A stretch of DNA of 51,200 nt from Desulfobacterales bacterium (GCA_016209225.1 JACQWO010000071.1:1-51200), one strand, 5' to 3'; positions 5,889-24,802 are shown, counted from the stretch's first letter. The notes: generated from the sequence alone by a model not told the origin. Program-made: numbers and translations.

Positions 5889-5916
5889 TTAATTTAACAA
5901 AAGGAGGTAATGAAAA

Positions 5917-6591: not shown

Positions 6592-6600
6592 CAGTTCACG

Positions 6601-6735: not shown

Positions 6736-6821
6736 CAAAATAGTTTCAGATTAAACTTTAGTGATGCCCTTTTAAGGCTTCCATTCCCCGGAGGGCTTGG
6801 TTCATTTGTCAGGAGAATGTC

Positions 6822-7838
6822 TTGGTTAGCAATGCCTGTAAATCCCTGTTATTTCCATTATGGAGGCCGATTTTACTTTTGATTTCGGTATCCCTTATAT
6901 TTTTTTTGAATGGGTGCGCTTCTAAGAAGGATATTGTTAGCCTTCAATACGACTTAAACAGCTTAAACGCGCAGATCACTGGTTTAAGAAAGGATATAAA
7001 AAAGGATACTGAGCAGTCTCTTGACCTGCTGAAGAAAAATGAGGAAAAAATACGCGGAATTGAGGATAGAATTGCGGGGTTCAAAGGTAATATTAAGGAC
7101 ATTGAGGATAGAATTGCAGGGCTCGAAGGTAATATTAAGGAATCTATAAGTCCTGTGAGGAAGAATCAGGCTGATGCAAGCGCAAGGCTGGATAACTTAC
7201 AGGTTCAGATTCGATCTTTGGGAGGAAAGATTGAAGAATACGGTTATCTTTTAGATAAACAAAACAGAGAAAATACCTCTTTAAAAAAGGGGTATGAATC
7301 TGAAACAAAGACCATTGAAGCAAAATTGTCTGGATTGGAGAAGCGTCTCCTTTTTCTGGAGGGATTTTTGGTCTCTGAAAGCGCCCCTTCTACTGAAGAA
7401 ACTCCCTCTAAGGAGGGAACTTCCAAACAGAGTGAGGAGAAAGAGGCAACCGAAACCAAGAGGCCAGCCAGTGAGGAGTTGTACCAGAAGGCGTACAATG
7501 ACTTTAAGAAAGGGGATATAAATACCGCTAGAACAGGGTTTCGAAAATATCTAAGGGTATTTCCCAATGACAACTATTCGGATAATGCCCAATACTGGAT
7601 TGCGGAATCCTTCTTTATAGAAAAAAAGTACAGAGAGGCTATACTGGAATTTGAAGAGGTTTTAAGGAAATATCCCAAGGGCAACAAGGCCCCCAGTGCC
7701 CTATTAAAACAGGGTTTGGCCTTTTATAGATTGGGGGACAAAAACAGTGCCATGCTGTTATTCCAAAAGGTCATCAAGGATCATCCAGGCTCTAATGAGG
7801 CTAAGATAGCCAAGAAAGAGTTGGAGAAATTGGATTAA
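6822..7838 (+). CDS. cpoB: CpoB/YbgF, cell-division coordinator with TPR domain
   Basis: Last gene of the Tol block; CpoB coordinates peptidoglycan synthesis with outer-membrane constriction. The TTG start is chosen from AGGAG at 6811-6815; no in-frame ATG is near. The N-terminus looks like a lipoprotein signal (LIFFLNGCAS, lipobox LNGC), which differs from soluble E. coli CpoB. A coiled-coil follows (about 40-175, with the repeated unit IEDRIAG), then a linker and three TPR units (about 215-338; ELYQKAYNDFKKGD, SDNAQYWIAESFF, APSALLKQGLAFYRLGD). Confidence 0.9.
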   Translation: MVSNACKSLLFPLWRPILLLISVSLIFFLNGCASKKDIVSLQYDLNSLNAQITGLRKDIKKDTEQSLDLLKKNEEKIRGIEDRIAGFKGNIKDIEDRIAGLEGNIKESISPVRKNQADASARLDNLQVQIRSLGGKIEEYGYLLDKQNRENTSLKKGYESETKTIEAKLSGLEKRLLFLEGFLVSESAPSTEETPSKEGTSKQSEEKEATETKRPASEELYQKAYNDFKKGDINTARTGFRKYLRVFPNDNYSDNAQYWIAESFFIEKKYREAILEFEEVLRKYPKGNKAPSALLKQGLAFYRLGDKNSAMLLFQKVIKDHPGSNEAKIAKKELEKLD

Positions 7839-7870
7839 GGAGGTTCAGCGGTCAGCTGAATGCTTCCTGA

Positions 7871-8947
7871 TTATCTTACATTCAACAACATAAAGATTCC
7901 AACCATCAAGAAGATAAAATTGGATATCCATGCAGAAACTATGGGTGGTAGAGTGCCATTGTGTCCTAAAGAAAGAGCAATTGACAGTATAACCCAATAA
8001 CCAAAGCTTATTATTATGCTAATCCCAATCCCGCTAATGATTCCTCTCTCCCTTCCTGTTCTTAGGGCAAAGGGTATCCCAAAAAGCGGCATTATAATGC
8101 CCGCAAAAGGGAAAGCCAGCTTTGCATGCATGTCAACCAGATATTTTGTAGCATCGTAGCCTTCGGCTTTAATCTTTTTAATATAGCCTTTAAGTTCACT
8201 GTAACTCATCTCATCGGCACTCTTTTCTACAATCTTGAAGTCGTCAGGAGTCTCTGAGATAGGAATTATTTTTTCATGCCACCTTTCCATTCCGACTTCT
8301 CCTCCATTCTCAAAGTTTCTGGAACAAATGTCATAGAAATACCATTTCTTATTAATCCATCTAGCTGTATTTGCGTCTATACGCCTAATCAGATTGAAAT
8401 CTTTATCAAAATAGTAGATGGTTATACCTTGGAGGGTGTTTTTTTTGGGATCGAATATGTTGATATTGTAGATGGAGCTGTTACTTCTGTACAGAATCCT
8501 GTTTTGTTTAAAAGAACCACGCGGATTCTTTTTTTCTAATCCTGTCCTTTCAATATATTTGATCCTCTGGTTTGTATAGGGTAAAATAGACTCATTGCCT
8601 ACCAGAGAACCAATACTGACCAGTATGGATATCCCTATGACAGGAACAATAATCCTATATATGCTTACCCCGCTTGTCATAATAGCTGTAATCTCGCTGT
8701 TTTTAGACAGTATCCCTAAGGTTATGACAGAGGAAAGCAGAGTGGCAACAGGGGCGACCTGAACCATTATAAGGGGAATCTTAAACATGAAATATTCAAT
8801 AGTTGTAGAGAGAGGGACCCCTTGCCTAATAAAGTCATTTATATTCTCAAGAACGTCAACTATAAGATAAATGACAACGAAAGCGCTCATGCTCAAAAAA
8901 AATATCTTTAAAAATTCTCTACCGATATATCTGTTTAAGATGCTCAA
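7871..8947 (-). CDS. LptG/LptF-family lipopolysaccharide export permease
   Basis: YjgP/YjgQ-type inner-membrane subunit of the Lpt ABC machine that extracts lipopolysaccharide. It opens with SILNRYIGREFLKIFFLSM, has membrane helices near the N-terminus and at the C-terminus (FPFAGIIMPLFGIPFAL and three more), and a beta-jellyroll periplasmic part between. The frame is open up to 9073, but I place the start at the TTG 8947 because GGGAG is seven bases upstream and the protein then has 358 residues, the normal family length. No second permease (LptF/G partner) is adjacent. It is convergent with cpoB, 32 bases apart. Confidence 0.85.
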   Translation of the reverse strand: MSILNRYIGREFLKIFFLSMSAFVVIYLIVDVLENINDFIRQGVPLSTTIEYFMFKIPLIMVQVAPVATLLSSVITLGILSKNSEITAIMTSGVSIYRIIVPVIGISILVSIGSLVGNESILPYTNQRIKYIERTGLEKKNPRGSFKQNRILYRSNSSIYNINIFDPKKNTLQGITIYYFDKDFNLIRRIDANTARWINKKWYFYDICSRNFENGGEVGMERWHEKIIPISETPDDFKIVEKSADEMSYSELKGYIKKIKAEGYDATKYLVDMHAKLAFPFAGIIMPLFGIPFALRTGRERGIISGIGISIIISFGYWVILSIALSLGHNGTLPPIVSAWISNFIFLMVGIFMLLNVR

Positions 8948-9102
8948 CTGCAGGCTCCCATGTATCCATACAACTGACCGCATACAACGGACAACTGATA
9001 CTATAATAACTTTATCGTATAATATAAATCGAGTCTTGTAAATCGTTTTTTTCTCCCTGGTTTCCTCTTGCAATTTGGGCTTGCTGCTGGTATCTTTTAA
9101 TT

Positions 9103-9164
9103 CGTAATTCGTGAATCGTGAATGGGTTTTTTATTTATTTCCGACTCACGATTCACGACTTACG
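9103..9164. repeat. inverted repeat of CGTGAATCGTGAA words
   Basis: The arm at 9103-9122 and its complement at 9145-9164 match at about 18 of 20 positions, with a T-rich 22-base loop. It lies in the divergent region between the lptG-like gene and deoB. The style (short repeated words forming a long stem) is the same as in the other intergenic repeats here. Confidence 0.7.
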
Positions 9165-9192
9165 GTTTTATTAAAGAGGAGATGATTATTTA

Positions 9193-10374
9193 ATGTCATC
9201 AATTTGCATTAAACGCATAGTTCTTATAGTACTGGATAGTGTCGGCATTGGTGAGCTGCCAGATGCTCTGGATTACGGTGATGTTGGAAGCAATACCCTT
9301 AAAAATATTGCTGAGGAATTGGGAGGATTGAATCTCCCAAGTTTAGAGTCTATGGGATTGGGATTGATAGAGGATATAAAGGGATTAAGAAACAACATAC
9401 TACCCACGGCCTTTTATGGAAAGATGTCAGAGATGTCGAAGGGGAAGGACTCCACTACAGGCCACTGGGAGCTAGCCGGTGTGATTCTGGATACTCCTTT
9501 TCCAGTATTCCCAGATGGGTTCCCCCAAGGGATTATAGAAGAGTTTAAGGAGGCAACAGGGCTGGATGTCATTGGAAATTTTCCCGCCTCAGGCACAGAG
9601 ATCATTAAAGACCTGGGAGAGGAGCACTTAAACACAGGAAAACCTATAATATATACTTCAGCGGACAGTGTATTTCAGATTGCTGCTCATGAGGACATAA
9701 TCCCTCTAAGTAGACTCTATGATATCTGTCAGGTAACTAGAGAGATACTGAATTCTTATAGTGTATTAAGGGTGATAGCCCGTCCCTTTATTGGCAAACC
9801 GGGCAGTTTTAAAAGAACAAGGGCAAGAAAAGATTATTCAATTCCTCCTCCCAGGGATACGATTTTAGACGTACTGAAAGAGGCTGGATTGCCGGTGATA
9901 GGTGTAGGTAAAATCAGCGACATATTTGCAGGCAGAGGATTGAGTCTAACAATCCCTACCGAAAACAACCTTGATGGAATAATCAAGACCATTGAAGCGA
10001 TAAAATATACGAATAAGGGGCTGATCTTTACAAACCTGATCGACTTCGATATGATATGGGGGCACAGAAAAGATGTTAAAGGATATGCCAACGGACTGAA
10101 AGAGTTTGACAACAGCCTTCCTGAGATTTTAGGCTTGCTAACCGATGGTGATCTGCTGATTATTACGGCTGATCATGGATGCGATCCCACAACCCCGGGC
10201 ACAGATCATTCCAGAGAGTACGTTCCTCTGCTCGTGTTTAACCCATCCTGTCCTAAAGGAAGATGTTTAGGTGTCAGACGTACCTTTGCCGATGTAGGAC
10301 AGACCATAGCCTCGGCGTTCGGTGTAAATTCCCTTGAGAATGGAATGAGTTTTTTGAAAGAGGTCATATGTTGA
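9193..10374 (+). CDS. deoB: phosphopentomutase
   Basis: Interconverts (deoxy)ribose 1-phosphate and 5-phosphate in nucleoside salvage. It belongs to the alkaline phosphatase superfamily with Mn-binding and active-site segments visible: RIVLIVLDSVGIGELPDA at the N-terminus, DSTTGHWELAG with the phosphorylated Thr, FDMIWGHRKDVKGYANGLKEFD and ITADHGCDPTTPGTDHSREYVP. The 393-residue length matches the family. GAGGAG lies 11 bases upstream of the ATG. It appears monocistronic; the next gene has its own promoter. Confidence 0.96.
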   Translation: MSSICIKRIVLIVLDSVGIGELPDALDYGDVGSNTLKNIAEELGGLNLPSLESMGLGLIEDIKGLRNNILPTAFYGKMSEMSKGKDSTTGHWELAGVILDTPFPVFPDGFPQGIIEEFKEATGLDVIGNFPASGTEIIKDLGEEHLNTGKPIIYTSADSVFQIAAHEDIIPLSRLYDICQVTREILNSYSVLRVIARPFIGKPGSFKRTRARKDYSIPPPRDTILDVLKEAGLPVIGVGKISDIFAGRGLSLTIPTENNLDGIIKTIEAIKYTNKGLIFTNLIDFDMIWGHRKDVKGYANGLKEFDNSLPEILGLLTDGDLLIITADHGCDPTTPGTDHSREYVPLLVFNPSCPKGRCLGVRRTFADVGQTIASAFGVNSLENGMSFLKEVIC

Positions 10375-10506: not shown

Positions 10507-11196
10507 TTGAATAATAACCCCTTTGAGTTTAAGCTGTTAGTGAAAGAGGGCGAATCCATAGAGAAATCTGTATATAAATTCCTAAGGAAGGCTGTATATT
10601 CCGGTTACTTTCAGCCTGGCGAGAGGCTGGTAGAGGCATCGCTGGCGGAAAGGCTCAACGTAAGCCGCACACCTTTGAGGGAGGCAATAAAGCGGCTGGA
10701 GACTGAGGGGCTTGTGAAGATAATCCCCAATAAAGGGGCTGCAGTATTAAAATCGTCTCCTGAAGAAATAGAGGAGATGTATTTTATTGCCGGTGTACTT
10801 GAAGGTCTCGCAGCCTATTTGGCCGTGGATAACCTCTCAGAGGCAGATATAGATAGGATAAGGGGAATAGAGCTCATTTTAGAGGACGGGGAGTGTCAGA
10901 GTGACTATGAGAGGTGGCTAAAGTTAAACAATGAATTTCATAATATTTTTATTTCAGCGTGTAAAAAGTCTCTTCTGATAAGATTATTGAATCAGAGGAC
11001 CGGGCCATTGGGGAGGTACTGGTATCTTGGTTGTACAAGCCCTGGGATGATAGATTCATGTATATTTGCCCATAAAAATATCCTGAAGGCTTTTTCTGAA
11101 AGAGATGCAGAAGCTGCCAGGAAAGCTGTGGAGGAACATCTATTTCAGGTAGGCAGATTAATGAGGAGACATATGGGGAGAATCTTTGTGGTCTAG
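10507..11196 (+). CDS. GntR-family transcriptional regulator (FCD subfamily)
   Basis: Ligand-responsive repressor type. The winged helix-turn-helix spans about residues 18-85 (YKFLRKAVYSGYFQPGERLVEASLAERLNVSRTPLREAIKRLETEGLVKI is the family hallmark region) and the all-helical FCD ligand domain about 90-220. The TTG start has GGAGG at 10495-10499. It precedes the acyl-CoA dehydrogenase and dehydratase genes, so a role as their regulator is plausible. The gene ends in a GAAAAGG/CCTTTTC hairpin (11209-11226). Confidence 0.9.
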   Translation: MNNNPFEFKLLVKEGESIEKSVYKFLRKAVYSGYFQPGERLVEASLAERLNVSRTPLREAIKRLETEGLVKIIPNKGAAVLKSSPEEIEEMYFIAGVLEGLAAYLAVDNLSEADIDRIRGIELILEDGECQSDYERWLKLNNEFHNIFISACKKSLLIRLLNQRTGPLGRYWYLGCTSPGMIDSCIFAHKNILKAFSERDAEAARKAVEEHLFQVGRLMRRHMGRIFVV

Positions 11197-11488: not shown

Positions 11489-12658
11489 ATGTCTATTTGT
11501 TTCGATCTGACAACGGAACAGGAAGAGATTAAACGACAGGCAGGGGAATTTGGCAAGAGAGAGGTTGCACCCATAGCTGCTGAGATTGACGAAAAGGACG
11601 AAATGCCCTGGGACCTGATAAAAAAGATGGGGCAGCCCCCCCATAGATATATGGCAATGTATATACCAAAGGAGTACGATGGCACTGCATGGCCTATATT
11701 GGATATATGCATAGCTGCTGAGGAGATTACATATGTCTCTCAGTCTGCCATGGCCGGAATGCTTATGGAGGCGCCCGGCCTGGCACCAACGACTATTCTG
11801 GCTGGCGGCAACGAAGAACAGAAGAAAAAGTATGTGGCACCTGTAGCCAGAGGAGAGGCATTTGGCGCCTTTGGTCTTACCGAGCCCGGTGTGGGTTCCG
11901 ATGCCAGTGCCCTTGAAACCGTTGCCGAGATGAAAAACGGCAAGTATGTTCTCAATGGGAGAAAGAGGTATATGAGCTTTGCCCATGCTGCAGATTGGGG
12001 AGTGGTTATGGCAAAGACCGATCCTTCCAGGGGAGCAAGGGGTATCAGCGCATTTGTGATAGAAAAGGGGACACCCGGTTATTCAGTTATAGAAAAGGTC
12101 CCGACTATGGGATGCAGAGGGCACCAGGATGAAGAGGTGCTATTTAAGGATTGTGTGCTTCCGAAGGAACAACTGGTTGGTGAAGAAGGGAAAGGGCTTA
12201 AGTATGCCCTATCCACCCTTGATGAGACCAGAACTACCCTGGCTGCCGGTTTTGTTGGACTGACAAGAGCAGCCCTTGAAGAGGCTGTTAAATATGCTAA
12301 GAGCAGGCATGCCTTCGGTCACCCTATAGGTGAGTATCAGATGGTCAGCTTCTCCCTGGGCGATATTGCTACTGAGATTGAAGCAGCCCGACTCCTTGTC
12401 TACAAGGCGGCAATACTCGCTGACAAGAAGGTAAAACACAGCGCCGAGACCGCATCTGCCAAGGCATTTGCATCCCAATTGCTCCTGAAGGCTACTAACC
12501 TGGCAGTGGAGGTTCATGGGGGTTTTGGCTGTACAAAACGACACCCTGTAGAGCGTATGTTCAGGGATGCAAGGACATGGGTCTTTGCCCAGGGAGCCCC
12601 CTATGTGCAAAGGCTGATAAATGCTAGAAGCTTATTTCCTGAATTGACTATAAGATAA
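11489..12658 (+). CDS. acyl-CoA dehydrogenase family flavoprotein, atypical catalytic site
   Basis: Full-length (389 residues) FAD enzyme of the acyl-CoA dehydrogenase fold: N-terminal helices, middle beta domain (GAFGLTEPGVGSDASAL, then LNGRKRYMSFAH), and C-terminal helices (LDETRTTLAAGFVGLTRAALEEAV, HGGFGCTKRHPVERMFRDA). The usual catalytic Glu of the YEGT motif is replaced by Gln (VFAQGAPYVQR, about Q368), and the alternative Glu of the isovaleryl type (LDxER) is a Thr here (LDETR). It may therefore use another base or catalyse a different reaction. AGGAGG precedes the ATG. Its place between the GntR gene and the dehydratase cluster suggests that it acts on a substrate or product of that pathway. 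Confidence 0.85.
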   Translation: MSICFDLTTEQEEIKRQAGEFGKREVAPIAAEIDEKDEMPWDLIKKMGQPPHRYMAMYIPKEYDGTAWPILDICIAAEEITYVSQSAMAGMLMEAPGLAPTTILAGGNEEQKKKYVAPVARGEAFGAFGLTEPGVGSDASALETVAEMKNGKYVLNGRKRYMSFAHAADWGVVMAKTDPSRGARGISAFVIEKGTPGYSVIEKVPTMGCRGHQDEEVLFKDCVLPKEQLVGEEGKGLKYALSTLDETRTTLAAGFVGLTRAALEEAVKYAKSRHAFGHPIGEYQMVSFSLGDIATEIEAARLLVYKAAILADKKVKHSAETASAKAFASQLLLKATNLAVEVHGGFGCTKRHPVERMFRDARTWVFAQGAPYVQRLINARSLFPELTIR

Positions 12659-12661: not shown

Positions 12662-12753
12662 TAACTACTCAGGTTGTCAGGTTCACGGTTCACGGTTGGC
12701 TATCTTCATTGCTCTCTAACCTTGAACCTTGGAACTTTGAACCTGAGTAGTTA
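12662..12753. repeat. intergenic element with perfect 14-bp terminal inverted repeats
   Basis: TAACTACTCAGGTT (12662-12675) and AACCTGAGTAGTTA (12740-12753) are perfect inverted repeats. The interior is built of GGTTCACGGTT and CCTTGAACCTTGG words that can extend the stem imperfectly. It is the clearest member of a family also seen at 5811, 19246 and 47037. Confidence 0.75.
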
Positions 12754-12785
12754 CAGATAAACAAGGTGAAAGAAAGGAGTGCAGT

Positions 12786-13928
12786 ATGGAAAGAGTATTG
12801 AGTAAGATTACAGAGGTCACATCAGATCCTTATGCCTATGTTACTGGGCTTAAGGAGCGTACAGGAAAAAAGGTCATCGGGTGCTTTCCCATGTATGTTC
12901 CGGAAGAGATAGTCCACGCAGCCGATCTGATCCCGGTGGTGATATGGAGAGGCAACGAGTCGGTAACATGGGGGCATGCCCACGTACCGCCTTATGACTG
13001 CGGTATTACAAGAAGCTTTGTCGATGATGCTGTAAGAGGGAAGCTGAATTTTATGGATGGGATGGTCTTTCATGTAAGACAGTGTTTGCAGGTTGGAGAG
13101 TTTCCCCTGATCATAGAGAGGAATGTAAAACCAGCCTATCAGAAGGTTCTGTACCTGCCTCCCATCTATGAGGGAGAGGCGGTGAGGTCATTCTTGCTGG
13201 ATGATTTGGAGTCCTTCAAGACCTCACTCGAAGACTTTACAGGCAAGAAGATAAGCGATGACAGTCTCAAGAAGAGTATCGAGATATACAATGAAAACCG
13301 CAGCCTCCTGGAAAGGGTCTATGAAATAAGGAGAGAAAAACCGGGGATATTAAGGGCAAGAGAGGTAATGCAGACAGTATGGTCCAGCATGTTGATGCTC
13401 AAGGAAGATCATAATGAATTGCTGAAAGAGCTCATTAAGGACATGGAGGGAAAGACTGTAGAAAGCAAAGGAGAAAGGGTTAAGGTTATCCCAGTTGGTT
13501 GTCTCTGTCAGACCTTGCAGTTTGACATCCTTGACATGATAGAGGATCTGGGGATGATTATTACTGATGATGATTTATACGTTGGTTCAAGATACTTTGC
13601 AAACAAAGCAAACCTTAATGGCAGCCCGATAGAGGCGCTGGCTGATCGTTATCTTACCAAAACCCCTCTCTGTCCGACAAAGGGGGTTTGGGACATCCAT
13701 TGGGGTGATGAGGCCATAAAGAAGATGAGGGATAATAATGCCAAAGGTATTATCAGTATTCGGGTAAAGTACTGTCCCCCTCACACCTGTTATTATCCTG
13801 ATTTCAAGAGCAAGATGGTGGAAGAGGGTGTGCCTGAGGTAATGATAGAGATGGAACACGAGATTATGTCTCTGGAAGGCATAAAGACCAGGTTGCAGTC
13901 ATTTGCAGAGACAATAGGAGGTGTATAA
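12786..13928 (+). CDS. 2-hydroxyacyl-CoA dehydratase/benzoyl-CoA reductase BcrC-type subunit, copy 1
   Basis: [4Fe-4S] subunit of the HgdB/BcrC superfamily, 380 residues. Such dehydratases remove water from (R)-2-hydroxyacyl-CoA by radical chemistry after ATP-driven reduction by an activator. Conserved Cys are visible at residues 33 (VIGCFPMYVPEE), 72 (PPYDCGITRS), 100 (HVRQCLQVGEF), in PVGCLCQTLQFD and in KYCPPHTCYYPDF. The stop overlaps the next ATG (TAATG at 13926-13930), giving coupled synthesis with subunit B1. About five of six residues match copy 2 at 15249. The 24 bases at 12754-12777, which carry the upstream region and ribosome-binding site, are identical in copy 2. The substrate cannot be read from sequence. 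Confidence 0.88.
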   Translation: MERVLSKITEVTSDPYAYVTGLKERTGKKVIGCFPMYVPEEIVHAADLIPVVIWRGNESVTWGHAHVPPYDCGITRSFVDDAVRGKLNFMDGMVFHVRQCLQVGEFPLIIERNVKPAYQKVLYLPPIYEGEAVRSFLLDDLESFKTSLEDFTGKKISDDSLKKSIEIYNENRSLLERVYEIRREKPGILRAREVMQTVWSSMLMLKEDHNELLKELIKDMEGKTVESKGERVKVIPVGCLCQTLQFDILDMIEDLGMIITDDDLYVGSRYFANKANLNGSPIEALADRYLTKTPLCPTKGVWDIHWGDEAIKKMRDNNAKGIISIRVKYCPPHTCYYPDFKSKMVEEGVPEVMIEMEHEIMSLEGIKTRLQSFAETIGGV

Positions 13929-15193
13929 TGGACATAAAATACAAAGTAAATCGGCTTGTGACAACTAATGATATTAGACCCATGGTGGATAAGCACTGGG
14001 CTGACCTCAGAACAGCCAAGGAAAGAGGAGAAAAAGTAGCCTGGGCATCAGGCCCCACTTTTATAATCCCCTATGCCATGGGCATGAAATCCCACTTTAT
14101 GGCCGGTTATGCTGCATACTGTGGTGGAATAGGAGCTGCTGACGAGGTTCTGAAGGTGGCTGAAGCGACAGGGGAGCTTTCTGAGTCGTGTTCCTATCAT
14201 CGGCTTCACATGGGCATGGCTGAAGCCATCAAGCAGGGGATAGAGATAAACCCGGCGGCAATACTTCCAATGCCTGATTTAATGGTATCCGGTCGTTTAT
14301 GCCCGGAGATGTCCCATTATGCTGAGGGACTTTACCGAAGGATGAACGTTCCTGTTGTTACTGTTGAGCTTCCCATTGCTTACGCAAAGGAGGATGTGCC
14401 GAGAGTTAAGGCATTTGTTTACAGGCAATTTAAAGAAGTTATTATCCCGGCTTTTGAAAAGGTATGCGGCAAGCCCTTTGATTATGATCACTTGAGTGAG
14501 ATATTGACTGTACTAAAAAAGGCGGCCACTATAAGAAATCAGTGTTGGGAGTTTTTTAAGGATAAGCCATCTCGTTGGACACTCTGGGATTATGGTGTCA
14601 GCATTGCGCCGGTCTTCTATTTGATGGGAAAACCTGAAAGCATTACCTATTATGAGAAACTCCTAAAAGAGCTGCAGGAAAGGAGAGCAAAGAACATTCC
14701 GGCGATAGCCCCGGATGGAGAGAAGTACCGGCTGTACTGGGATGGTTGGATACCATGGGCCTTTTTGGGCAAATTTATGCGCAAACTGATCCCGAATGGG
14801 GCTGTTTGCATATGTGGAAGATATCCCTGGGAATTTTTCATGCATCCTGAACGGCTCGATCCTGAGCATCCCCTGGAATCCTTTGTCGATGCATTTTGGG
14901 GCGAGGATAGCCCCCGATGCTTTTCCAACAAAGCCCCAAAGGGGTCCCTTGAGCTTATAAGCGACCTGATAGAGGAATACTCACTTGATGGAATGATCAT
15001 GTTTTCCTCCAAGTCATGCAGGCTTTGGAACTTGTCTCAGCCGGATATGATGGATGTATTATATAAGAGGCATGGCGTACCCGGAGTTGTTATTGAGGCT
15101 GACATGGTTGATGCATCCATGATTTCCGATTCTCAGATAGACACCAGGCTCGAGGCGTTATTCGAGACGATAGACGGGATAAGAAGAAGGTAG
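13928..15193 (+). CDS. 2-hydroxyacyl-CoA dehydratase/benzoyl-CoA reductase BcrB-type subunit, copy 1
   Basis: Partner subunit of the preceding protein, 421 residues, same superfamily (HGD-D domain). Cys-containing motifs are GYAAYCGGIGAADE, ESCSYHRLHMGMAEA, GRLCPEMSHYAEG, CICGRYPWEFF and MFSSKSCRLWNLSQPD. The ATG overlaps the A1 stop and is served by AGGAGG inside the end of A1. Length and pairing resemble BcrB with BcrC, but only one short activator gene is present in the cluster, which favours a dehydratase over a benzoyl-CoA reductase. Roughly three quarters of the residues match copy B2. Confidence 0.88.
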   Translation: MDIKYKVNRLVTTNDIRPMVDKHWADLRTAKERGEKVAWASGPTFIIPYAMGMKSHFMAGYAAYCGGIGAADEVLKVAEATGELSESCSYHRLHMGMAEAIKQGIEINPAAILPMPDLMVSGRLCPEMSHYAEGLYRRMNVPVVTVELPIAYAKEDVPRVKAFVYRQFKEVIIPAFEKVCGKPFDYDHLSEILTVLKKAATIRNQCWEFFKDKPSRWTLWDYGVSIAPVFYLMGKPESITYYEKLLKELQERRAKNIPAIAPDGEKYRLYWDGWIPWAFLGKFMRKLIPNGAVCICGRYPWEFFMHPERLDPEHPLESFVDAFWGEDSPRCFSNKAPKGSLELISDLIEEYSLDGMIMFSSKSCRLWNLSQPDMMDVLYKRHGVPGVVIEADMVDASMISDSQIDTRLEALFETIDGIRRR

Positions 15194-15216
15194 AGCGGGG
15201 AGAGTATTTCTGAAAT

Positions 15217-15248
15217 CAGATAAACAAGGTGAAAGAAAGGGGTGTAGT
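15217..15248 (+). promoter_or_regulatory. duplicated leader and ribosome-binding site of dehydratase copy 2
   Basis: The 24 bases 15217-15240 are identical to 12754-12777 upstream of copy 1 (including AACAAGGTGAAAGAAAGG), followed by GGTGTAGT against AGTGCAGT just before the ATG. The duplicated block therefore began upstream of the A gene. Confidence 0.7.
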
Positions 15249-16391
15249 ATGGAAAGAGTATTGAGTAAGATTGCAGAGGTCACATCAGATCCTTACGCCT
15301 ATGTTGCCGGACTTAAGGAGCGTAAGAATAAGAAGATTATTGGATGCTTCCCGATGCACGTTCCGGAAGAGATAGTTCATGCAGCCGATCTGATTCCGGT
15401 AGTAATATGGAGAGGCAACGAACCGGTAACGTGGGGGCATGCTCATGTACCACCCTATGACTGTGGTATTACAAGAAGCTTCGTTGATGATGCAGTGAGA
15501 GGAAAACTCAGTTTTATGGACGGGTTTGTCTTTCATATAAGGCAATGCCTGCAAGCCGGAGAGTTTCCCTTTATTATGGAGAGGCATTTTAAGCCTGCCT
15601 ACCAAAAGATTTTATACCTTCCTGCCATCTATCCCGGCGATCCCACAAGGGATTTTGCACTAAAAGAATTGGAATCTTTTAAGACATCGTTAGAAGACTT
15701 CACCGGCAAAATGATAAGCGATGATAGTCTCAAGAAGAGCATTGAGATATACAATAAGAACCGCAGCCTTATGGAAAGGGTCTATGAAATACGACGGGCA
15801 AAACCGGAGATATTAAAGGCAAAAGAGGTCATGCAGATTGTATGGTCGAGCATGTTGATGCCCAAAGAAGACCACAATGAATTGCTGACAGAGCTTATTA
15901 AAGGGATGGAAGAAAAGAGTGTCAAAGCCCAAAAAGAAAGGATTAAGGTTATCCCTGTCGGCTGCCTCTGTCAGACCCTTCAATTTGACATCCTTGACCT
16001 GATAGAGGATCTGGGGATGATTGTCCCTGATGATGATCTCTATATCGGTTCAAGATATTTTGCGAATCCAGTCAATCTTAATGGTAATCCATTGAAGGCC
16101 CTTGCTGATCGTTATCTTACCAAAACCCCTCTCTGTCCTACCAAAGGGGTTTGGGATATCCATTGGGGTGATGAGGCCATAAAGAGGATGAGGGATAATG
16201 ATGCTAAAGGTATTATCAGTGTTCGAGTAAAGTACTGTCCTCCTCACACCTGTTATTACCCTGACTTCAGGAGCAAGATGGCGGAAGAGGGGGTACCTGA
16301 GGTGATGATAGAGATGGAACACGAGATTATCTCTCTGGAAGGTGTAAAGACCAGGTTGCAGTCATTTGCAGAGACAATAGGAGGTGTGTAA
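15249..16391 (+). CDS. 2-hydroxyacyl-CoA dehydratase/benzoyl-CoA reductase BcrC-type subunit, copy 2
   Basis: Tandem paralogue of the gene at 12786, also 380 residues, with all the same Cys motifs (IIGCFPMHVPEE, PPYDCGITRS, HIRQCLQAGEF, PVGCLCQTLQFD, KYCPPHTCYYPDF). Differences cluster around residues 105-135 and 190-235, with few near the Cys motifs. The same TAATG overlap (16389-16393) links it to B2. Retention of intact cofactor residues in both copies argues for two working enzymes, perhaps with different substrate range, rather than one decaying copy. Confidence 0.88.
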   Translation: MERVLSKIAEVTSDPYAYVAGLKERKNKKIIGCFPMHVPEEIVHAADLIPVVIWRGNEPVTWGHAHVPPYDCGITRSFVDDAVRGKLSFMDGFVFHIRQCLQAGEFPFIMERHFKPAYQKILYLPAIYPGDPTRDFALKELESFKTSLEDFTGKMISDDSLKKSIEIYNKNRSLMERVYEIRRAKPEILKAKEVMQIVWSSMLMPKEDHNELLTELIKGMEEKSVKAQKERIKVIPVGCLCQTLQFDILDLIEDLGMIVPDDDLYIGSRYFANPVNLNGNPLKALADRYLTKTPLCPTKGVWDIHWGDEAIKRMRDNDAKGIISVRVKYCPPHTCYYPDFRSKMAEEGVPEVMIEMEHEIISLEGVKTRLQSFAETIGGV

Positions 16392-17650
16392 TGGACGTAA
16401 AGTATAAGGTAAATCGGCTCCAAACAACGAATGAGATCAGACCGTTGGTAGATAAACACTGGGCTGACCTGAGGACAGCCAAGGAGAGAGGAGAGTTGGT
16501 GGCATGGGCATCGGGTCCCACATTCATATTTGCCTATGCAATGGGTATGAAATGCCACTTTATGGCCGGTTATTCCGCATACTGTGGCGGCATAGGGGCA
16601 GGAGAAGAAGTCTTAAAGGTAGCAGAGATGGCAGGAGACCTTCCTGAAACATGCTCATATCATCGGCTTCACATGGGGATGGGCGAAGCCGTAGCCAGAG
16701 GGATACCCATAAATCCACAGGCAATACTTCCTATGCCTGATTTGATGGTGGCAGGTCGCCTCTGCCCTGAAATGTCCCATTATGCTGAAGGGCTTCATCG
16801 AAGATTTGGAGTTCGAGTTTTGCCTATTGATCTTCCTGCTGTTGCAAATATAGAAGACATGCCCAGAGTGAGAGAATTCGTTTACAGGCAATTTAAAGAG
16901 GTTGTCATACCGACTATTGAGGAGGTATGCGGAAAGCCCTTCGATTATGATCGAATGAGTGAGATATTAAGTGTACTCAAAAAAGTAGCTACACTCAGAA
17001 ATCAGTGTTGGGAATTTTTTAAGGACAAACCCTCTCGTTGGACACTCTGGGACTATGGTGTAAGTATTGCGCCTGTTTTCTATTTGATGGGAAATCCTGC
17101 AGGTATCACCTATTATGAGAAACTCTTGAAAGAATTACAGGAAAGGAGAGAAAAGGGTATCCCTGCAATAGCACCGGATGGAGAGAAATACCGGCTATAT
17201 TGGGATGGTTGGCTTCCCTGGGCATTTTTAGGCAAATTTATGCGCAAATTTACACCTCATGGCGCAGTTGTCCTCTGTGGAAGATACCCCTGGGAGTTTT
17301 TCCCCCATCCGGAACTGATTGACCCTGAACATCCGGTTGAGAGCTGGGCGGATCTGTATTATGGTATGGAAAGTCATCTGGTTTATACCTTCTCTCCTAA
17401 GGGAACAATAGACTTGATAGGTAAGCTGATTGATGACTACTCCCTTGACGGATTGATCATGTTCTCCTCCAAGACATGCAGGGTAATGAACCTTGCTCAA
17501 CCGGAGGTAATAGATGTGTTGGATAAAAAGTACGGGATTCCCGGGGTAATTATTGAAGGAGACATGATTGATTCAGCTATGATTTCAGATGCTCAGATAG
17601 AAACAAGGCTTCAGGCGTTATACGAAATGATAGATTCAAGGAGAAGGTAA
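16391..17650 (+). CDS. 2-hydroxyacyl-CoA dehydratase/benzoyl-CoA reductase BcrB-type subunit, copy 2
   Basis: Tandem paralogue of B1, 419 residues. The Cys motifs SAYCGGIGAGEE, ETCSYHRLHMGMGEA, GRLCPEMSHYAEG, LCGRYPWEFF and SKTCRVMNLAQPE are kept. It differs from B1 most in the C-terminal third (for example WADLYYGMESHLVYTFSPKG against FVDAFWGEDSPRCFSNKAPK), a likely place for specificity differences. The activator ATG follows four bases after its stop. Confidence 0.88.
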   Translation: MDVKYKVNRLQTTNEIRPLVDKHWADLRTAKERGELVAWASGPTFIFAYAMGMKCHFMAGYSAYCGGIGAGEEVLKVAEMAGDLPETCSYHRLHMGMGEAVARGIPINPQAILPMPDLMVAGRLCPEMSHYAEGLHRRFGVRVLPIDLPAVANIEDMPRVREFVYRQFKEVVIPTIEEVCGKPFDYDRMSEILSVLKKVATLRNQCWEFFKDKPSRWTLWDYGVSIAPVFYLMGNPAGITYYEKLLKELQERREKGIPAIAPDGEKYRLYWDGWLPWAFLGKFMRKFTPHGAVVLCGRYPWEFFPHPELIDPEHPVESWADLYYGMESHLVYTFSPKGTIDLIGKLIDDYSLDGLIMFSSKTCRVMNLAQPEVIDVLDKKYGIPGVIIEGDMIDSAMISDAQIETRLQALYEMIDSRRR

Positions 17651-17654
17651 AAGG

Positions 17655-18446
17655 ATGGCTATAGTGGTTGGCGTAGATGTGGGTTCCCTCTGTACGAAGA
17701 CGGTGATACTGGATGGAGATGGGGGAATTCTGTCATACGACATTATGCGAAGCGGGCACTACTATAAGGGCGCCGCTGATGAGTCCATAGAGAGTGCCCT
17801 TAAATCCGCCGGTCTGAAGAAAAGTGATGTAAGCTATATATTGGGGACAGGCTATGGAAGAGGGGCTGTTGCGGAGGCTGATGCCGAAGTGACTGAGATA
17901 ACATGCCATGCACGGGGAGCTGCAAGGCTTTTCCCCGAAGTTCATACAGTTATTGATATTGGCGGTCAGGACAGTAAGGTAATAGGAATTGGTGACAACG
18001 GTAGAGTGATCAACTTTGTCATGAACGACAAGTGTGCTGCCGGAACAGGCCGGTTTTTAGAGGTAATGGCTTTAGCTCTCTCGGTTGATATTGGAGAGAT
18101 GGGCGATTTGTTTTTTGCCTCTAAGGAGAAGGTAGAGGTAAGCAGCATGTGTACCGTATTTGCTGAATCAGAGGTTATATCCTTATTTGCCCAGGGTCAT
18201 AAAAAGGCCGATATTGCGGCAGGTATTGCCCATGCTATTGCCAGACGCATTGTAGGTATGGTAGGGCAGGTAGGTTTGAGGGAAAAGGTGGTAATGTCAG
18301 GGGGGGTAGCGAAGAATAGTGGGGTTGTACGTGCTATTGAAGAGAGGATAGAAACCAGGCTCCTTGTCCCTCGTGAGCCCCAGATAGTTGGTGCTCTTGG
18401 AGCTGCAATTATTGCTTCCGAGCGTATGTCAGCTACTATCGGCTAA
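17655..18446 (+). CDS. 2-hydroxyacyl-CoA dehydratase activator ATPase (HgdC/component A type)
   Basis: ASKHA-fold, ATP-driven electron-transfer protein that injects a low-potential electron into the dehydratase. Phosphate loops are GVDVGSLCTKTVIL and DIGGQDSKVIGI; the adenosine motif is SGGVAKNSGVV. The two cluster ligands that bridge the homodimer are Cys127 (NDKCAAGTGRF) and Cys166 (SSMCTVFAESEVISL), at the same residue numbers as in the well-studied HgdC. The 263-residue length fits HgdC. It is the only activator for two dehydratases. Its last codons and stop are read from an intergenic hairpin repeat (18436-18455). Confidence 0.93.
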   Translation: MAIVVGVDVGSLCTKTVILDGDGGILSYDIMRSGHYYKGAADESIESALKSAGLKKSDVSYILGTGYGRGAVAEADAEVTEITCHARGAARLFPEVHTVIDIGGQDSKVIGIGDNGRVINFVMNDKCAAGTGRFLEVMALALSVDIGEMGDLFFASKEKVEVSSMCTVFAESEVISLFAQGHKKADIAAGIAHAIARRIVGMVGQVGLREKVVMSGGVAKNSGVVRAIEERIETRLLVPREPQIVGALGAAIIASERMSATIG

Positions 18447-19859: not shown

Positions 19860-20993
19860 TTACAGTCCCATCACATCAGCCAATGCCTCACGATGAAAAT
19901 CGGCATTTCCGAAATACACCCCTGCCGCCTTAGTCCTTCTGAAATAGAGTTGGAGGTCGTGTTCTTCCATAAAACCTGTACCTCCGACAGCTTGATGCGC
20001 AAGTGCAACAAGGCTGCGACAGGAATCGGTTACCCATGCCTTGGTCATGGCAATCTCCCTTTCACAAGACAAGCCTTCGCTTATTCTCCACGCTGCCTGA
20101 TGGGTCATTAATCTGGATGTATCGAGATAGGTTACTATATTTGCACAATGGTGCTGAACGGCCTGAAAACTTCCTACCTTCACACCGAACTGCTCCCTCT
20201 CGCTAACCTGCTCTATTGCCAGCTCCAGTGCCCGTTGACCTCCTCCAACCATCTCCGCACACTTGGCGATTGCTGCCTTTTGAAGGACCTTTTTCACAAT
20301 TGGCCAACCCTTGTCCAGCTCACCCAGGATGTTTCCTTTAGGAACCTTTACGTTGTTGAAAACGACTTCATTCAGTTTATCTCCGGCAAATGTTTTGAGG
20401 GGAGTAATCACTACCCCCTGGCTCTTTGCATCTACTAGAAAGAGGGTAATTCCGTCTTCTTTGTTTTCACCTTCTTTTGTCCTTGCAACACAGATGATAT
20501 AATTGGCAAGATGGGCGTCCGGGACAAAGAGTTTTGTTCCATTGATTACAAAATCATCGGCGTCTTTTTCCGCCTTCACTGCTATCCTTTCGGGCGAATA
20601 CCCTGCAATTGCCTCAGTTAGCGCCAGGGTAACAAATATCTTGCCTTCTGCGATCCCTGGCAGTAACTTCTGCTTTTTCTCTTCATTTCCTGCCTCCATG
20701 AGGGTCATTCCGCCTAAAATAACCGTAGAGAAGAAAGGTCCTGGCAGACAGGAATATCCCATTTCAACAAGGAGCACCATCAGATCAAGATAACTTCCAC
20801 CAATACCACCGTATTCCTCAGGGAATATCAATCCCATCCATCCAAGCTCCGCCATCTTTTGCCAGAGTTCGGGTGTAATCCCATGGGGATTCTCCTCCAT
20901 CTCCCTCACGAATAGAGGCTTGCATTCCTTAGAGAGAAAGCCTTTGGCCGCTTTTTTCAATAATTCCTGTTCTTCATTTAAATCGTAATCCAT
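19860..20993 (-). CDS. acyl-CoA dehydrogenase, probable non-catalytic partner subunit
   Basis: 377 residues with the acyl-CoA dehydrogenase fold (MDYDLNEEQELLKKAAKGFL; VTLALTEAIAGYSPE; FVINGTKLFVPDAH). The C-terminal motif reads GVYFGNADFHREALADV instead of YEGT, and no Glu stands in the isovaleryl-type position, as in the second subunits of heteromeric enzymes such as FadE28/FadE29 or PimC/PimD. It follows the gene at 21044-22207 by 50 bases in the same operon. I infer that the two form a mixed complex. AGGAGG precedes the ATG. Confidence 0.85.
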   Translation of the reverse strand: MDYDLNEEQELLKKAAKGFLSKECKPLFVREMEENPHGITPELWQKMAELGWMGLIFPEEYGGIGGSYLDLMVLLVEMGYSCLPGPFFSTVILGGMTLMEAGNEEKKQKLLPGIAEGKIFVTLALTEAIAGYSPERIAVKAEKDADDFVINGTKLFVPDAHLANYIICVARTKEGENKEDGITLFLVDAKSQGVVITPLKTFAGDKLNEVVFNNVKVPKGNILGELDKGWPIVKKVLQKAAIAKCAEMVGGGQRALELAIEQVSEREQFGVKVGSFQAVQHHCANIVTYLDTSRLMTHQAAWRISEGLSCEREIAMTKAWVTDSCRSLVALAHQAVGGTGFMEEHDLQLYFRRTKAAGVYFGNADFHREALADVMGL

Positions 20994-21043
20994 GCTTATT
21001 TCCTCCTTCAGCAGTTTAGAATAAAACCCACAGATTCAGATAG

Positions 21044-22207
21044 TTATCTCGGCAAGCCCAATCCTCTCTGGGCAATAATGTTTCTCTGTATCTCAGAGGT
21101 TCCCGCGTAAATTGTCTCCACAATACTGGTTCGATAGAATTTTTCCACCTTCCCTTTCAATTGAGCCCATTTGGAACCCTCCTTAATTTGACCATAGAGA
21201 CCCAAAATATCCATCCCCACATTGACAATTCGTTGGGCACACTCTGTGGCAAAGGTCTTTTCCATTGACGACTGATAGTTGGGGATGCCTCCCTTATCCA
21301 GGATATGGGCGAGTTGATAGTAAAGAAGTCGCGTAACCTCAATTTCGGTGGAAAGCTGTGCCAGCTTTTGACGTATCAATGGGTCTTTGGACAGAGTTTT
21401 CCCGTCTACTATTGTTTTTTTTGTGTATTCGACCAATTCATCGAAGACACGGTGGTACCTTCCAAGAGGAAACATCCTCTCAAAATCCAGAGCCGCCATC
21501 AGGTAATAGAACCCTTTGTTCTTTTCACCCACCAGGTTTTCCTTAGGGACACGAACATCTTCGTAGACAACCTCGTTTGTCTGCCAACCAGCCATGGTGA
21601 TAAGGGGGCTTATGGTAATACCGGGACTCTTCAAATCCACTATCATCATTGAAACACCTTTGTGCTTTGCTACATCAAAGTCAGTTCTGCAAGCAAGCCA
21701 GTGGCAGTCTGCAATATGACAACTGGTATTGAACAACTTGTTTCCGTTTAACAGAAAGTAATCACCTTTGTCTTCAGCCCGAAGATTTAATGCAGAAAGG
21801 TCTGATCCTGCCTGAGGTTCTGTATATCCAAGGGCAAATTCCAGTTCCCCACTTGCGATTCGTGGCAGCCACTTCTTTTTCATCTCATCACTTCCAAATC
21901 GAAGAATCGTAGGACCTGCCATATGGGCAGCCACAAAACCGAAAGGCAGACCATGATAACCCATCTCTTCTCGGATCATGTAACTTGCAACATCGGACAC
22001 TCCCAGGCCACCGTATTCTTTTGGCCATGTAGGGGTGAGCCATCCCTTTGCCGCCATCTTCTGGATAATCTTTCGACCCTCAGGTCCACCGTAGATGTCA
22101 CCCATGTCTTCGGTTTCCTTCAACATCTCCGGGGTTGACTCTTTTTTCATAAATTCACGAACCTCTTCCTGTAACGCCTTTTCTTCTTTGGTAAACTCAA
22201 AATCCAT
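21044..22207 (-). CDS. acyl-CoA dehydrogenase, probable catalytic subunit
   Basis: 387 residues, complete fold (FTKEEKALQEEVREFM; ALGYTEPQAGSDLSAL; LLNGNKLFNTSCHIAD; IYAGTSEIQRNIIAQR). The usual Glu of the YEGT motif is Ala (YAGTSEIQR), but LDFER supplies Glu243 at the place used by isovaleryl-CoA and long-chain dehydrogenases. AAAGGAGGT lies upstream of the ATG. In this operon a role in isovaleryl-CoA or related branched-chain oxidation is plausible but not proven. Confidence 0.88.
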   Translation of the reverse strand: MDFEFTKEEKALQEEVREFMKKESTPEMLKETEDMGDIYGGPEGRKIIQKMAAKGWLTPTWPKEYGGLGVSDVASYMIREEMGYHGLPFGFVAAHMAGPTILRFGSDEMKKKWLPRIASGELEFALGYTEPQAGSDLSALNLRAEDKGDYFLLNGNKLFNTSCHIADCHWLACRTDFDVAKHKGVSMMIVDLKSPGITISPLITMAGWQTNEVVYEDVRVPKENLVGEKNKGFYYLMAALDFERMFPLGRYHRVFDELVEYTKKTIVDGKTLSKDPLIRQKLAQLSTEIEVTRLLYYQLAHILDKGGIPNYQSSMEKTFATECAQRIVNVGMDILGLYGQIKEGSKWAQLKGKVEKFYRTSIVETIYAGTSEIQRNIIAQRGLGLPR

Positions 22208-22326
22208 GCTGAACTACCTCCTTTGAATGAAATGAGATTCAAAACTCCCTTTCCCGCTACCTGGATGCAAACCCTTGCGCATATAATAAGGCTAAATTTA
22301 ATAACCCCTTTACTTCAGGCTGTTGC

Positions 22327-22521
22327 TTAAATTTCATCTTTCGGTTCTGGCTCATATGCAAGTCTGCCGTATACACTTTCATAAGACTTGCAAAAAGGGC
22401 AAACCTTTCGATCTACGTTCTTGACAAACCAATAAGCAGCGCCCTTTTGTTTTTTCCTGGCTGTCGTACAAACTGGGCAGACATTCTTACAGAAATTTGC
22501 TGCACTCTCTTTCATTGACAT
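22327..22521 (-). CDS. small zinc-ribbon-like protein
   Basis: 64 residues with two Cys pairs, FCKNVCPVCTTARK near the N-terminus and KVCPFCKSYE near residue 42, spaced as in a zinc ribbon or rubredoxin-like knuckle. A strong GGAGGGG precedes the start, and the gene lies in the catabolic operon between the HMG-CoA-lyase-like and acyl-CoA dehydrogenase genes. I do not recognise a named family. It could bind Zn or a single Fe and might assist the neighbouring acyl-CoA enzymes. Confidence 0.7.
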   Translation of the reverse strand: MSMKESAANFCKNVCPVCTTARKKQKGAAYWFVKNVDRKVCPFCKSYESVYGRLAYEPEPKDEI

Positions 22522-22715
22522 CTCATCCCCTCCATTGAAAAAGGTTGATGTTTATAATAAAGTGCATATGCAAAACGGTTTTCAAACCCAAATGTCAAAA
22601 AAGATTCATATTTCCTATATTTCTTATAATTGTTGGGTTAATCCAACGAACTCAATGAACCCTTGTTTCGGCATTTGGGTTTTGAGCTTGATTTGATATT
22701 TGAGCCTTGTCATTT

Positions 22716-23837
22716 TTAGCCTCTATATTGAGCTTTCTCCGGCCAGCCATCAGGATAAATCTGATTGGGCTTTTCGCCCAGTTTTTCTTTGACTTTTGCC
22801 AATCCTTTTCGTTTAAATTCCTCTCTGGGCTTTTTGGGAATCCTGCCGTTCAGGATCGCTTCAGAACGGAGGCGACGGCCTATGGTCTTCTCCATAATGG
22901 TGCCCAACTCCAGGAGACGATCTACATTTATCCCGATCTCTATACCCATTTCGTCCATCATGACCGCCATGTCCTCCATGGTAGTCAAACCAACCACGTT
23001 AGGGTCCTTGTAGTAATATGCCCCGGTCCCTGTAACAGGAACGCCATCTATGAAGTTGGCAGGCTGGCCTCCCAGGCCGCCAATGGTTCCCTCAAATATG
23101 TCAATACCAGTCTGAAGGGCAGCCAATACATTGGCCAGTCCCCAACCCCGTGTTACATGAAAGTGGCCCACGTGGAGGTCTGTATTCGGCATAGCATCCA
23201 AAACCATGGAATAATAACGGTAGACCTGATTCGGAGGCGCTGAACCGTCGTGGTCCGCATGTTCTATATCTGCAGCGCCTATATCCAGCCATCGTTTAGA
23301 GAATTCCACAGCATCTTCCAGTTTTGTAGGCCCGGAGATAGGGCTTCCCCAGATGGTGCTGACGCAACCGCACATCTTGATCCCTGCATCTGCTGCCTTT
23401 TTTATGCACCGTTCGGCCTCTTTCCAATATGCCGGCAGCGATGTGCCGGAGTTGGCAAAGTGGTGATGTTCATCTGTAGAGACCATCATAAGGATACGGT
23501 CTGGCCCCCAGCCCTCTTTCCTGGCTTCAATTGCCCTGTCCACTGCCTGTTCCCTTATGGTGACCACTGTGAGTTCTATTTCCTCCCAGTTAATACCGGC
23601 CTTCGCTAATTTCTTGCTTCCCCGCAACTGTTTCATTAACTCATCTGAGTCTTTGAACTGGGGCATCCCTTTGGGATTCCCAAAATTGGTTACCTCCAGG
23701 CGTTTGAAGCCGCACAGGATTAACTCTTCCAGGTAAAAGAGCTTTGCCTCTGTAGGTATGAAGTGTTCTTCATGCTGAAACCCATCTCGCACGGTTATAT
23801 CCCCTAGCCTGACCTTTTTAGGGTATTTCAATTCCAT
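22716..23837 (-). CDS. HMG-CoA lyase-like DRE-TIM barrel enzyme, divergent
   Basis: 373 residues. The barrel opens with GDITVRDGFQHEEHF (metal and general-acid region) and carries the metal-binding HVGHFHVTRGWGLAN (His225, His227). The HMG-CoA lyase signature loop reads GGLGGQPANFIDG: the catalytic Cys is Gln258. A C-terminal extension of about 60 residues is also atypical. It therefore probably cleaves or condenses a different acyl-CoA. GAGGAGG precedes the ATG. A canonical lyase exists in the same operon at 26441. Confidence 0.78.
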   Translation of the reverse strand: MELKYPKKVRLGDITVRDGFQHEEHFIPTEAKLFYLEELILCGFKRLEVTNFGNPKGMPQFKDSDELMKQLRGSKKLAKAGINWEEIELTVVTIREQAVDRAIEARKEGWGPDRILMMVSTDEHHHFANSGTSLPAYWKEAERCIKKAADAGIKMCGCVSTIWGSPISGPTKLEDAVEFSKRWLDIGAADIEHADHDGSAPPNQVYRYYSMVLDAMPNTDLHVGHFHVTRGWGLANVLAALQTGIDIFEGTIGGLGGQPANFIDGVPVTGTGAYYYKDPNVVGLTTMEDMAVMMDEMGIEIGINVDRLLELGTIMEKTIGRRLRSEAILNGRIPKKPREEFKRKGLAKVKEKLGEKPNQIYPDGWPEKAQYRG

Positions 23838-23904
23838 AATTCAAACCTCCTCATCAGTCTTTTATCTGCCTTTGTGTTCTGATTTCGGCAACAGCAAGCT
23901 TAGC

Positions 23905-23928
23905 AACAGCAAGCTTAAGCTTGCTGTT
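23905..23928. repeat. AACAGCAAGCTT palindrome, second copy
   Basis: Perfect 24-base palindrome identical to 6647-6670; a partial AACAGCAAGCTTAG copy stands just before it at 23890-23903. It lies between the hydratase and HMG-CoA-lyase-like genes. Confidence 0.75.
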
Positions 23929-23947
23929 AGAGGACGAAGGTCAGTCT

Positions 23948-24736
23948 TCATCTGCCCTTGTATTCCGGTTTCCGCTTCTCTTTAAAGGCATTAAGCCCTT
24001 CAATACGGTCTTCTGTGGGTATTGTTATGGCATAAGCCCGGGCTTCTATGCCCAGACCAATATCAAGGCTGCACTCCATCCCTTTATTGATGGCAAATTT
24101 TGCCTGCTGCACAGCGATAGGGCCGTTCTCAGCAATCTTGTGGGCTATCTCCATACAGGTGTCCATCAACTTATCGGGCTCCACTACATGGTTTACCAAA
24201 CCGCAGGCTAAAGCCTCATCCGCAGTAATACGTTTTGCTGTGTATATAAGCTCTTTGGCCTTTGATATACCTACAACCCTGGGCAAACGTTGGGTACCGC
24301 CTGCGCCTGGGATAATGGCCAGACTGGTTTCTGTCAATCCCATGACCGCATTGGAAGAGGCTACTCTTATATCGCAGGCCAGAGCCAGCTCTAATCCCCC
24401 ACCGAAGGCAAAACCGTTAATGGCTGCGATAACCGGTGCCTTTACATTTTGAACATTAGAAAATGTGGAACTGATGGTATGAATAAACCTCTTGACATCG
24501 TCTTCTGACATGGTTCTTCTCTCAACGAGATCGGCTCCTGTACAAAAGGCCGCCTTTTTTTCTCCTGCTGCCCCGGTAATGATTATGACCCGAAGGTCAG
24601 AATCGAAATTTGCCTCAGAAATAGCGGCATTGAGTTCATTAAGAAGGGCAAAATTAAAGCAGTTCATCGCTTCAGGGCGATTGAGAGTTAAGGTCAGAAT
24701 ACCATCCTTCTCTTCTTTTAACAGGATATCTGGCAT
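23948..24736 (-). CDS. 3-methylglutaconyl-CoA hydratase-like enoyl-CoA hydratase (AUH/LiuC type)
   Basis: Crotonase-fold protein of 262 residues. Oxyanion and catalytic regions are AAFCTGADLVERRTMS, INGFAFGGGLELALACDIRVAS and MGLTETSLAIIPGAGGTQRLPR, with both catalytic Glu. The C-terminus (GPIAVQQAKFAINKGMECSLDIGLGIE, then IPTEDRIEGLNAFKEKR) closely follows the mitochondrial AUH pattern, so 3-methylglutaconyl-CoA is the best substrate guess. I prefer the second ATG (24736) because AGGAGG is seven bases upstream; the first is six bases earlier. It follows the carboxyltransferase gene in the leucine-type pathway order. Confidence 0.9.
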   Translation of the reverse strand: MPDILLKEEKDGILTLTLNRPEAMNCFNFALLNELNAAISEANFDSDLRVIIITGAAGEKKAAFCTGADLVERRTMSEDDVKRFIHTISSTFSNVQNVKAPVIAAINGFAFGGGLELALACDIRVASSNAVMGLTETSLAIIPGAGGTQRLPRVVGISKAKELIYTAKRITADEALACGLVNHVVEPDKLMDTCMEIAHKIAENGPIAVQQAKFAINKGMECSLDIGLGIEARAYAITIPTEDRIEGLNAFKEKRKPEYKGR

Positions 24737-24802
24737 CTTCATTCCTCCTTAAATAACAATGATTCAAGTTATAAGGTTACAGGATTATATGCCAAGTTGC
24801 AA

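Follow-up and report, generated by a model that had tools for sequence, protein, structure and literature searches.

The 51,200-nucleotide stretch of Desulfobacterales bacterium DNA analysed here (GCA_016209225.1 JACQWO010000071.1:1-51200, hereafter the window) comes from an uncultured deltaproteobacterium and corresponds to contig C56 in an assembly of 3.1 Mb that is 98.5% complete. At positions 12786-18446 it carries, on the + strand throughout, an operon of five genes in the order A1-B1-A2-B2-activator, encoding two subunit pairs of the benzoyl-CoA reductase (BCR)/2-hydroxyacyl-CoA dehydratase (HAD) radical-enzyme family and one activator. Genes for a GntR regulator and an acyl-CoA dehydrogenase (ACAD) lie 5' of A1, and PHP and then HIT genes lie 3' of the activator. 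A preliminary description placed the start at 12754, which takes in the leader of the first gene. The features are as follows:

10507..11196, + strand: GntR/FCD-family regulator (Pfam PF00392 and PF07729), syntenic with the operon in relatives
11489..12658, + strand: ACAD, the 5' gene of the A1B1A2B2-activator unit (Pfam acyl-CoA_dh domains)
12662..12753, no strand: inverted-repeat element between ACAD and A1, 92 nt with 36-nt arms
12754..12785, + strand: A1 leader with Shine-Dalgarno sequence, its first 24 nt identical to the A2 leader
12786..13928, + strand: A1, putative electron-relay (beta/gamma-type) subunit (Pfam HGD-D, motif columns, AlphaFold2 (AF2) model)
13928..15193, + strand: B1, putative active-site (alpha-type) subunit with Cys88/125/364, Ala59 and Glu127 (Pfam HGD-D, alignment, AF2 model)
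15217..15248, + strand: A2 leader, 24 nt identical to the A1 leader
15249..16391, + strand: A2, putative electron-relay subunit, syntenic orthologue (up to 97%) of the single A gene of relatives at this site
16391..17650, + strand: B2, putative active-site subunit with Cys88/125/363, Ala59 and Glu127, syntenic orthologue in relatives (93-97%)
17655..18446, + strand: activator, an ASKHA ATPase expected to form a homodimer in which Cys127 and Cys166 would bridge one [4Fe-4S] cluster (TIGR00241)

Both pairs show the layout reported in the preliminary description: the stop codon of A overlaps the start codon of B within TAATG, and an identical 24-base leader, CAGATAAACAAGGTGAAAGAAAGG, which contains the Shine-Dalgarno region, stands shortly 5' of each A start. 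The leader identity is far beyond chance and implies shared descent. All eight A cysteines and the B iron ligands (C88, C125 and C364/363) are present in both copies, and Cys127 and Cys166 of the activator are at the positions previously given. A1 and A2 are 84% identical in amino acids and 83% in nucleotides without gaps, and B1 and B2 74% and 75%, respectively. The B copies had been said to diverge most in the C-terminal third; the maximum does lie at residues 301-360 (53-57% identity vs 80-93% at 181-300), but residues 61-180 are also low (63-80%). The dN/dS values of ~0.11 for the A copies and ~0.12 for the B copies (NG86) indicate purifying selection on both pairs. A promoter/terminator scan gave matches no more frequent than chance.

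Domains were assigned with Pfam, and family membership was judged by the cut-offs of the NCBIfam equivalog models. Although A and B match Pfam HGD-D, neither reached the cut-off of any NCBIfam dehydratase or benzoyl-CoA reductase equivalog. The best bit scores of A against cut-off were 202/700 for HadC, 163/421 for BcrC (TIGR02263), 148/454 for BzdN (TIGR03190) and 133/350 for DCCP (NF040772); B scored 135/487 with BcrB (TIGR02260) and 115/750 with HadB, and TIGR03191 gave 51/449. The activator passed TIGR00241 (275 bits, cut-off 125) and scored 244 bits with HadI (4eht), 236 with MbdQ and 221 with HgdC (1hux). AF2 models built from homologue alignments had a pLDDT of 90.7 for A1 (TM 0.90-0.92 to HadC, 0.92 to BzdN) and 89.4 for B1 (TM 0.86 to MbdO, 0.84 to HadB).

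Phylogenetic analysis showed that these pairs and their relatives form a monophyletic clade, with support of 100/100 in the B tree and 99/99 in the A tree. Its sister group (100/100 and 100/97) consists of plasmid-borne pairs from Azoarcus sp. KH32C, Sphingopyxis macrogoltabida, Rhodococcus ruber and Rhodobacteraceae QY30. Joining the clade without this sister group to the HAD enzymes (HadB + HgdA) was rejected (p-AU 0.0004), and so was joining it to BCR/MBR (p-AU 0.005); the firm grouping with benzoyl-CoA reductases that the preliminary description had named as a refutation was thus not found. When clade and sister group were moved together, p-AU rose to 0.15 with HAD and 0.23 with BCR/MBR, and neither placement was rejected. 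The pairs belong to a third lineage of the family, neither HAD nor BCR. The plasmid cassette resembles the window operon in its A-B pair, single activator and SDR/ACAD neighbours; unlike it, the cassette retains the Glu at B position 59 (HGE), shares only ~32-35% identity with A1 and resides in mostly aerobic or denitrifying hosts. No characterisation of this plasmid 2-hydroxyacyl-CoA dehydratase family cassette was found. Three places on the QY30 plasmid match A1 (loci L088, L089, L090 and L098 represent the plasmid group; G, C and L numbers are our handles for genomes, contigs and loci).

The residues around the active site set the clade apart. In the BzdNO structure, the BzdO cluster is bound by Cys95/128/380, Glu65 and His131 are the acid/base residues, Glu65 hydrogen-bonds an Fe-bound water and sandwiches the substrate ring together with Leu302, and the BzdN double cubane is bound by Cys36/73/100/263/293/327 (PMC11971306). 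Transferred by alignment to the window proteins, the three BzdO ligands correspond to C88, C125 and C364 of B1, as in the coordination of HadB, while Glu65 is replaced by A59 and His131 by M128. Position 59 is Ala in all 36 clade B subunits and Glu in all 19 outgroup sequences covering the column. The outgroup for B columns comprised 20 sequences, of which that of MbdO starts too late to cover position 59; the others include HadB and BzdO, BcrB-like proteins and one BcrB with a partner C subunit above its cut-off, as well as members of the plasmid group, paralogues from the window genome itself and a second type from Alkanophaga. A Fusobacterium HgdA likewise keeps the Glu (YPEN), and the column is secure because the neighbouring Y/A/C columns align well with the YPENYxxxCA of the paralogues. 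Three residues flanking the Fe ligand C125 in sequence mark the clade: Arg123 (36/36 vs none in the outgroup), Glu127 (36/36 vs 1/20) and His130 (34/36, mostly Lys in the outgroup). The replacement of the Glu65 equivalent by Ala59 together with a new invariant Glu127 suggests that protons are probably handled at a new site and that the reaction or its geometry has changed; the reaction of this Glu-less clade is probably not the textbook one.

In the A subunit, C72, C100, C241 and C330 are kept across the clade and are the probable [4Fe-4S] ligands as judged from the alignment. C241 is shared with MbdN and with a BcrC above its cut-off (L100), and is absent from HadC and BzdN. At the six BzdN ligand positions A1 has P35, C72, C100, Y265, C296 and C330; a double cubane in A was rejected, since P35 and Y265 replace two of the ligand cysteines. 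The A' type, the A subunit of a second pair (A'B') found in relatives, has neither C33 nor C296, which are therefore not essential ligands.

The preliminary description had proposed one HgdC-type activator for more than one pair, and the wider sample supports this. Among 12 genomes, counted at ≥60% identity, a single activator locus was found in each except G075, which has two fragments. The number of pairs, a lower bound given that most relatives are fragmented metagenome-assembled genomes, is one in G070, G395 and G396, two in G000, G039, G108 and G182, three in G075 and G137, four in G212 and at least five in G164 and G189. The activator of G182 adjoins neither of its pairs. Sharing is supported best by this contrast between activator and pair counts, and the presence of 1-5 paralogous pairs per activator makes it directly testable.

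Taken together, the locus would encode two radical enzymes of the BCR/HAD family, each a complete AB heterodimer, and one activator serving both, and the explanation as a whole is one to which we give somewhat better than even chances. Several points weigh against it. The loss of the Glu is a single evolutionary event, so that the tie between the Glu swap and an altered reaction is something we infer; the cluster ligands were assigned from alignment, and the AF2 model contains neither clusters nor ligands; the pair counts are minimum values, and G075 has two activator fragments; and other activators encoded further from this family in the same genome (C2, C62) could also take part in sharing.

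The locus might instead encode ordinary HAD-type (R)-2-hydroxyacyl-CoA dehydratases of unusual sequence, two paralogues acting on two 2-hydroxyacyl-CoAs with one activator and an electron recycled through many turnovers. HadBC with HadI (C. difficile; 3o3m, 4eht) and HgdAB with HgdC share with the window proteins the fold of the AB heterodimer, an active-site cluster on three cysteines and a single activator gene of homodimeric type; A ranks highest with HadC by profile and by structure E-value, and shares Cys33 and Cys296 with it. However, this explanation is unlikely given the distance from the HadB and HadC cut-offs, the tree rejected when the sister group is left out, the change of the YPEN Glu to Ala with the new Glu127/Arg123, the presence of Cys241, which HadC lacks, and the operon itself, among whose genes no CoA transferase or 2-hydroxyacid dehydrogenase, nor any other HAD operon partner, was identified. 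The label 'dehydratase' and the substrates proposed earlier are, on the same evidence, unproven. Class I aryl- or enoyl-CoA reductases (BCR/MBR-like), which spend ATP for each electron and reduce aromatic or conjugated acyl-CoAs, are more doubtful still. BcrCBAD, MbdONQP (9g87, 9gai) and BzdNOPQ (8s02) do share the fold and the B-cluster ligands, the four-Cys set 72/100/241/330 of A is that of MbdN and BcrC, B scores slightly higher with BcrB than with HadB, and MbdO is its top structural match. Membership is nevertheless not supported by cut-offs, tree or activator number. The equivalents of Glu65 and His131 are absent from B, the double-cubane Cys36 and Cys263 from A, and the locus has only one activator gene, the genome one close activator homologue, while BCR/MBR-type enzymes carry two different activator subunits. 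DCCP and DCCP-R (6eno, 7yyl) share fold and activator family with the window proteins, but their catalytic subunit is of a single kind and carries a double-cubane ligand set from which two members are missing here; they match B at only TM 0.70-0.71.

Both pairs appear intact, as the preliminary description had assumed. Each copy keeps every residue that is invariant in the other clade members, 62 in A and 98 in B, so that both are probably active. The thought that only one pair does the catalysis, while the other is left over from a duplication and is decaying or regulatory, would suit two similar pairs in one operon and relatives that lack A1B1 at this site; it is highly improbable in view of the invariant residues, the low dN/dS and a B1 orthologue of 85% identity in another genus. 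The B1 and B2 types each have their own fixed residue at 25 positions, nine of them at 301-360, near F303, the equivalent of BzdO Leu302; the type-specific W367/M lies three residues past an Fe ligand. In the model, residues 301-360 would lie beside the substrate pocket, and the clustering of type-specific residues there fits the earlier proposal of substrate-specialised enzymes. B1 and B2 are old paralogues that may be specialised for different acyl-CoAs, probably bulky or branched ones, and mixing of A subunits between the pairs is plausible.

The two pairs had been taken for a tandem duplication, which is not borne out. B1 groups with L042 (85%, another genus) and L066, and B2 with orthologues from other families, so that the two fall into different, older paralogue clades. 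In the same-genus loci L046, L047 and L063 the order is phosphopentomutase-GntR-A'B'-ACAD-AB-activator-PHP (the first name is our reading of a conserved upstream protein rather than the result of a family search), where AB is 93-97% identical to A2B2 and A'B' only ~55%. GntR adjoins A'B'/AB pairs in L045, L046, L047, L055 and L063, and ACAD sits between A'B' and AB in relatives. In the window genome A'B' was not found, and the place between ACAD and A2 is taken by A1B1. The B tree and this synteny rule out a simple tandem duplication of recent date. A2B2 is the resident, syntenically conserved pair. An older paralogous A1B1 pair would have come in at the A leader, between ACAD and A2, probably by recombination; the leader is also present 5' of the single A in L045 and L047. 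Gene conversion as the sole cause of the A1/A2 likeness was rejected: A1 is nearer to L052 or L042 in most segments and comes close to A2 only in the first segment and at the far 3' end, which leaves room for local recombination at most. The inverted-repeat element at 12662-12753 ends in (G)TAACTACTCAGGTT, and its end is found at the same site in L045 and L047. The end motif has 85 matches in the genome vs 4 for a reversed control, indicating a genome-wide MITE/REP-like family.

In the mechanism proposed for both pairs, the activator dimer would use ATP so that a single electron of low potential leaves its bridging [4Fe-4S] cluster for the [4Fe-4S] cluster of A, held by Cys72/100/241/330. The electron would then move on to the [4Fe-4S] cluster that Cys88/125/364 hold in B, and this cluster would turn the CoA thioester in the B site into a ketyl-type radical. 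The acid/base role would have moved from the Glu65 position (Ala59) to Glu127, which lies with Arg123 beside the Fe ligand Cys125. A clade that lacks the active-site Glu and has a compensating-looking Glu near an Fe ligand offers a natural test of proton handling in radical enzymes.

The lineage is narrowly distributed: within the phylum, 10 of the 395 genomes sampled have it, and among 197 genomes of the phylum of the Alkanophagales only the two Alkanophagales do. A peptide-pattern search of 84,980 species genomes returned 21 loci; one belongs to an untyped 'bacterium' in the same genus, and all the others to Deltaproteobacteria or Alkanophagales. Literature searches found no earlier description of it. 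Neighbouring genes across loci encode ACAD, ECH, SDR, carboxyltransferase, HMG-CoA lyase- and synthase-like proteins, MCM-like mutase, epimerase-like proteins, PFL2-type glycyl-radical enzymes and branched-chain-type transporters; those in Ca. Alkanophaga encode SDR and CoA ligase, with an AOR-like gene in one genome. The window ACAD matches AcrC best among NCBIfam models (334 bits, cut-off 640). Together, the neighbours point to degradation of bulky or branched acyl-CoAs rather than amino-acid fermentation. Identification of the glycyl-radical neighbour as an alkylsuccinate synthase was rejected: it matches the PFL2/dehydratase subfamily and stays under every equivalog cut-off, so no fumarate addition is claimed.

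It is possible, though well short of probable, that the lineage is a third functional class with a relocated acid/base glutamate, carrying out an undescribed ketyl-radical reaction on bulky or alkyl-derived acyl-CoAs, and common to subsurface Deltaproteobacteria (up to five pairs per activator) and the alkane-oxidising archaea of Ca. Alkanophaga. To our knowledge, the steps after alkane activation in Ca. Alkanophaga are still unknown, and the pairs would be a concrete candidate for the acyl-CoA steps there. In the Alkanophaga paper, the only mention is of a yjiL activator close to acr genes.

Directly 5' of an AB pair, L068 (11941-13647) and L060 (6943-8649) encode a divergent methylmalonyl-CoA-mutase-like protein that has CGYFIEEAG in place of the SGYHIREAG found in a normal mutase subunit (L055). 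Elsewhere, L082 (G000:C62:1-20000) holds at 4330-9587 a separate HAD/BCR-like cluster with two close B genes, two activators and one A gene with double-cubane-type cysteines, and L084 (G000:C31) encodes at 711-4937 a protein of ~1400 amino acids with two activator-type ATPase domains. On the - strand of the window, next to the operon, positions 19860-27355 carry two ACADs, two HMG-CoA-lyase-like genes, an ECH and a carboxyltransferase, partly conserved in relatives; this cluster resembles an acyl-CoA pathway of the leucine or isoprenoid type. Also on the - strand, a restriction/defence-like island (31199-46422) includes a BPTD_3080-family restriction endonuclease, two DNA methylase-domain proteins, PIN proteins, a HepT-like RNase and a Schlafen/AlbA protein.

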